Source of the DNA: Acidobacteriota bacterium
Lineage (GTDB): Bacteria > Acidobacteriota > Blastocatellia > Pyrinomonadales > Pyrinomonadaceae
Direction: 5' to 3'
DNA: 64,000 nucleotides
Assembly (NCBI GenBank): GCA_025463125.1
Contig: JAOAPX010000090.1
Location: 1-64,000 of the forward strand
Below are positions 32,018 through 32,575 of this stretch, one piece after another. The first letter of the stretch is position 1, and every line of letters starts with the position of its first letter. The notes beneath the pieces are model-generated. The model saw only the letters and a list, made by a program, of their open reading frames with translations. It was not told the origin of the DNA and did not search any database. A program made the translations under genes and the position numbers.

Positions 32018-32086
32018 GAATTACAGCCGGCAGTCAGCAGGAAAGCTGCCCGCTTTCAAGTTACCAATAAATTCTGGAGGTTATAA

Positions 32087-32575
32087 ATGCGATATTTTTT
32101 ATCAACGATTGTCGCCCTGGCGTTCGGCTTGAGTTTTTTAACGTCATGTCAGAACGCGGCGGCACCTGTCAAAGTCGAACAGGCTAAGACAAACACAAAC
32201 AATTCGGCTACCGCTTCGAAAACCGATGAACACGGACACCCGGACGGAGCGCCGCGCATTACTTTGGCGGAAGCCAAAAAAGATTTTGATGCGGGCAACG
32301 CGGTCTTTATCGATACGCGCGCCGAAGCGGCTTTCAAACAAGAACGCATCAAAGGCGCGATAAACATTTCGATGGAATCTTTCGAAGCGAAATATAAGGA
32401 TATTCCCGCAGGCAAGAAAATAATTGCCTATTGCTCCTGACCGAACGAACATACAAGCGCCGGTCTGGTTGCTAAAATGAAAGAAAAAGGAATTACAAAC
32501 GCTTATGCTTTGGTCGGCGGAACGAATGCCTGGAAAACGGCTGGTTACCCGATGGACAAAGGCGAACAAAAATAA
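32087..32575 (+). CDS. Rhodanese-domain lipoprotein with predicted selenocysteine at codon 118 (TGA 32438-32440)
   Basis: Lipobox LTSC; rhodanese VFIDTRAEAAFKQERIKGAINI; in-frame readthrough YCS[U]PNEHTSAGLVAKMKEKGITNAYALVGGTNAWKTAGYPMDKGEQK* completes the domain. Confidence 0.82.
32456..32473 (+). promoter_or_regulatory. Putative bacterial SECIS hairpin
   Basis: AGCGCC-GGUCU-GGUUGCU: stem with one bulged U, GG at the start of the 5-nt loop, about 21 nt 3' of the UGA; resembles the E. coli fdhF SECIS (loop AGGUCU). Confidence 0.65.

Follow-up and report, generated by a model that had tools for sequence, protein, structure and literature searches.

Rhodaneses with a Cys-x-Sec pair (CxU) are an already listed kind of selenoprotein, entered with the model NF041203 as rhodanese-like form 3, for which Zhang and Gladyshev 2005 are credited (PMC13188914), and elsewhere given as COG0607 form 2, CxU (PMC9312934). 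Selenocysteine (Sec) is also placed within the rhodanese domain in the selenoprotein rhodaneses of forms 1 and 2 (UxxS and UxxG) and in TsoB (NF045694) (PMC13188914). The initial annotation of the DNA studied here had noted that Sec-containing rhodaneses were on record, which is right, the kind in question being CxU form 3, NF041203 (PMC13188914, PMC9312934). The locus described below lies in a stretch of 64,000 nucleotides of an Acidobacteriota contig (the window), and the sequence comparisons give good support to regarding its predicted product as a lipoprotein branch of the CxU kind.

A rhodanese gene interrupted by one in-frame TGA

The gene runs on the forward strand from an ATG at position 32087 to a TAA at 32573-32575, and a Shine-Dalgarno-like GGAGG, read by eye on the same strand (32076-32080), stands 6 nt 5' of the ATG. 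The whole of 32087-32575 is a single frame with one interruption, a TGA at 32438-32440 (codon 118), which is where the initial annotation had put the end of the ORF, at 32440 inside the rhodanese active-site loop. Translation through this codon gives the 162-residue product exactly as it was quoted there, with the TGA as residue 118, made up of a lipobox-bearing signal peptide, a linker and a single whole rhodanese domain (32264-32539). Because the TGA falls in the active-site loop, the 117-residue ORF alone would be without the second half of that domain, and the claim that this half follows the TGA holds, the read-through product matching positions 2-101 of the 102 in the Pfam profile PF00581 with 58.6 bits (gathering score 22.2, E = 9.2e-16). 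An AlphaFold2 model has a confident rhodanese fold, with block mean pLDDT values of 90-98 over residues 51-160, and a Foldseek search against the PDB matched solved rhodaneses, including the YgaP rhodanese domain, the near matches also including a CoA-disulfide reductase with a rhodanese domain and NADH- and CoA-persulfide reductases.

The active loop reads YCSUPNE and holds the C-x-U of NF041203, seen also in aligned homologues, with Cys-116 encoded at 32432-32434. Compared with the canonical rhodanese loop, this one (CSUPNEHTS) has two extra residues. The canonical CxxGxR-type loop is absent, so sulfur transfer itself is not assured. Profile alignments disagree on the counterpart of the canonical catalytic cysteine, which aligns to Cys-116 in 3tp9 and 3nhv and to Sec-118 in 6mxv.

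Read with the standard code, the ORF is complete at 32440, and the gene might be a truncated rhodanese whose TGA is a genuine stop, an artefact of sequencing or the lesion of a pseudogene. TGA terminates 5 of the 38 long ORFs in the window and is therefore otherwise a working stop here, and 44 open codons 3' of a stop are by themselves not rare. The frame 3' of the TGA nevertheless exceeds what chance would give, because purifying selection acts on it (dN/dS 0.09-0.42 against six relatives) and because Cys versions that lack the interruption are homologous to it. A scan of the other read-through frames in the window, judged by eye, yielded no second convincing selenoprotein, and PADLOC returned no match.

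Evidence on the decoding of codon 118

Homologues were compared at the site of residue 118 in two partly overlapping sets, one of 30 sequences with 27 Sec and 3 Cys, the other of 79 from named GTDB genomes with 74 Sec and 5 Cys. Nothing but Sec or Cys occurs in this column, TGA being far commoner than a Cys codon, which answers the check on a cysteine at residue 118 that had been proposed at the outset; the best matches in relatives keep the TGA at the same column. Across the two sets TGA is found at 102 homologous sites (79 distinct sequences), and this recurrence rules out the sequencing error that had been named as a possible refutation. Two residues before, Cys-116 is invariant in 41 aligned sequences. 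The hosts are nearly all Pyrinomonadaceae, other Blastocatellia or unassigned Acidobacteriota, with one Thermoanaerobaculia MAG and one Deltaproteobacteria MAG at the edge of the range, and we accordingly take the host of the window gene to be a Pyrinomonadaceae-like acidobacterium. A family profile matched most of the Blastocatellia genomes sampled (95 of 118 at E = 1e-20, not all of them with TGA). A 90-row tree, which is weakly resolved, requires six changes to explain the Cys state, and its Cys rows are scattered among the Sec rows in a manner that fits repeated Sec-to-Cys replacement.

The putative SECIS element lies at 32456-32473 and is drawn as AGCGCC, a loop GGUCU that starts 22 nt 3' of the UGA, and GGUUGCU with one bulged U; it thus has a G in the apical loop of a hairpin directly 3' of the UGA. 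The motif at the tip of the stem-loop, CC-N-G-(T/G)-NN-GG, is present at the same offset from the UGA in all 79 distinct Sec sequences and in none of the eight Cys homologues, having been lost wherever the codon is Cys. The third positions of codons +7, +8 and +9 after the UGA show no variation (27 of 27 Sec sequences), contrary to the codon usage in the rest of these genes and to nearly all other third positions nearby, which vary. Codons +6 and +10 covary at their third bases through synonymous changes, with Ser AGC paired with GTG/GCG in 37 of 47 instances and Ser AGT with GTA/GCA in 20 of 27, a degree of pairing reached by none of 2000 column shuffles, which ignore relatedness. Folded alone, as a single sequence, the window element is not the minimum-energy fold (z about 0); the evidence for this predicted element is comparative and does not come from folding energy.

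The source genome, a 3.79-Mb draft that is 94% complete, contains all four of the genes for which a search had been advised, with selA (547 bits), selB (402 bits) and selD (363 bits) found by profile searches and a tRNA-Sec gene with the anticodon UCA. The selD gene (G000 contig C4:1620-2543; L057, L147) has a single in-frame TGA of its own, which makes SelD a probable further selenoprotein. Among 40 relatives searched, selA scored above the cut-off in 39, and in the sole exception, G021 (99% complete), a Sec homologue of the rhodanese lipoprotein is likewise absent. G021 and G081, which belong to the genus g21 of the same family, are both without this rhodanese, and together with the missing selA match above cut-off in G021 this suggests a loss of the Sec trait.

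The sequence features expected of a bacterial selenoprotein are found here, namely a UGA at the redox Cys position of the homologues, a predicted SECIS 3' of the UGA and SelA, SelB, SelD and tRNA-Sec in the genome. The selenoprotein claim of the initial annotation finds support in the Sec machinery, in a column restricted to Sec and Cys and in a conserved, covarying SECIS, and UGA-118 is almost certainly decoded as selenocysteine. A truncated gene is very improbable given that about a hundred relatives share the TGA, that selection acts downstream of it, that the SECIS motif disappears with the Sec codon and that the genome holds the full machinery. A genome-wide reassignment of TGA as a Trp or Gly codon would account for the open frame itself, the one observation found in its favor; it has next to no credibility, since TGA ends other long ORFs in the window, the tRNA-Sec with anticodon UCA is present and the homologues alternate with Cys and not with Trp or Gly.

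Export, neighbourhood and possible chemistry

At its N terminus the window protein has a signal peptide with the lipobox L-T-S-C21 (32087-32149), the combination by which a bacterial lipoprotein is recognized, with Cys-21 as the predicted lipidated residue. In a rough pattern scan, 51 of the 75 judgeable homologues had a lipobox behind a hydrophobic stretch, and the rest of the 75, viewed by eye, include many near-lipoboxes and a few plain signal peptides. The lipoprotein form claimed for this protein is thus seen across most of the clade, and it is very likely that the window protein is an extracytoplasmic lipoprotein. For the reading as a whole, that of a selenoprotein exported and anchored by lipid, we estimate a probability of about 0.9.

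Six relatives have neighbouring pairs of Sec rhodaneses (L141, L142, L143, L144, L145 and L146). Within each pair, inspection by eye shows a lipobox in one copy only, and YCxU and the SECIS tip are common to both; in some genomes the second copy of such a tandem pair is exported and carries Sec. In other Acidobacteriota, Sec CxU rhodanese domains are found C-terminally on membrane proteins, fused to a VTT/DedA-type protein in L148 (Pfam) and L149 (by eye) and to a Na+/H+ exchanger in L150 (Pfam); their TGA is followed by a similar SECIS tip.

The genes around the locus differ within the clade. Just upstream in the window's subclade is an amidophosphoribosyltransferase gene (purF, named by eye), whereas in a sister subclade the gene directly follows an AhpC/TSA peroxiredoxin gene (17 loci), and in a third it is in divergent orientation to NrfD/4Fe-4S and molybdopterin oxidoreductase genes, which are of a type that occurs in polysulfide reductases. 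What lies upstream varies from subclade to subclade, whereas UDP-sugar genes (named by eye) stay constant downstream, and for this reason we have downgraded the neighbourhood as a functional clue to a source of weak hints. No conserved selenium-metabolism gene was seen among the neighbours.

The protein may carry out sulfur/selenium transfer or thiol redox chemistry, as the initial annotation suggested, and the most likely mechanism appears to be a Cys/Sec redox pair that handles sulfane sulfur or disulfides, because Cys-116 does not vary and the site two residues on holds only Sec or Cys. In the scheme that we propose, the SECIS hairpin in the coding region 3' of UGA-118 would recruit SelB and Sec-tRNA(UCA), the UGA would be read as selenocysteine and the complete rhodanese domain would be made. 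After export and presumed lipidation at Cys-21, the active loop would present the Cys-116-Ser-Sec-118 pair, of which one chalcogen would react with a persulfide, polysulfide or related thiol substrate and the other would resolve the intermediate as an Se-S bond, to be reduced by a thioredoxin-like partner outside the cytoplasm. Such an enzyme would be a sulfane-sulfur or disulfide reductase and not a simple thiosulfate:cyanide sulfurtransferase. We give this redox-sulfur mechanism of Cys-116 and Sec-118 an even chance of being correct.

Two other functions have to be weighed against this redox-sulfur mechanism. The Sec protein might be mainly a peroxide/disulfide reductase or an oxidoreductase whose rhodanese fold no longer handles sulfane sulfur, as could be argued from a CxU pair without the CxxGxR loop, from the peroxiredoxin gene at the 17 sister loci and from the view that many Sec proteins are thiol oxidoreductases (PMC9312934). 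That peroxiredoxin, unlike the rhodanese, has no evident export signal, its place is taken in the window's own subclade by the amidophosphoribosyltransferase gene, and the third subclade has oxidoreductase genes of the polysulfide-reductase kind, so that we regard this function as possible, if on the unlikely side. Rhodanese folds can hold sulfur or selenium on an active-site residue, and on this ground the protein could instead carry or deliver selenium or sulfur (from selenite or thiosulfate, for example) without being a reductase; its export away from the cytoplasmic selenophosphate pathway and the lack of a conserved selenium-metabolism neighbour make this distinctly improbable.

Returning to the redox-sulfur mechanism, a broader and tentative proposal is that of a clade-wide envelope enzyme of Blastocatellia, a lipid-anchored Cys-x-Sec rhodanese with a tandem exported Sec copy in some genomes, which might serve an undescribed extracytoplasmic relay for persulfide or sulfane-sulfur reduction. 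If the function is as we infer, the use of Sec would extend to lipid-anchored sulfur/thiol chemistry of the envelope. Whatever the function, the homologues in which Cys has naturally replaced Sec and the SECIS motif has gone are available for comparison.

Comparison with described rhodaneses

The best NCBIfam match of the window protein and its homologues is NF041203, rhodanese_LYCAU, a "rhodanese-related (seleno)protein". The window protein scores 86.1 bits (79.2 from the genome search) and the homologues 63.8-111.9 bits, some of these being cut at the N terminus, against a curated cut-off of 115. The standard code halves the gene, and since its score with the best-matching selenoprotein model also stays below the cut-off, misannotation is likely. 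A widespread lipid-anchored branch would in this way be missed by the existing model. In a search of 149 Acidobacteriota genomes with NF041203, 37 gave matches of E = 1e-18 or better, many of them interrupted by a TGA in frame, and one match only passed the cut-off, which is likely to be an annotation blind spot. The literature searched, with most subscription journals outside it, yielded no account of this lipoprotein branch.

The single-domain Cys rhodaneses GlpE, which is cytoplasmic, and the YgaP rhodanese domain are like the window protein in fold and domain size, but have one catalytic Cys and a shorter loop, where the window protein has Cys-x-Sec, two additional loop residues and no CxxGxR. 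Forms 1 and 2 and TsoB share with the window protein a Sec within the rhodanese domain, although their Sec motif is without a paired Cys-x-Sec; TsoB, whose profile NF045694 matches the window protein weakly, is in addition a large rhodanese/DsbD-like fusion with two Sec residues. The NF041203 kind is the closest, having in common with the window protein the Cys-x-Sec in the active loop and a single rhodanese domain, and the branch described here differs from it in being mostly lipid-anchored, by prediction, and in belonging to Acidobacteriota, chiefly Blastocatellia.
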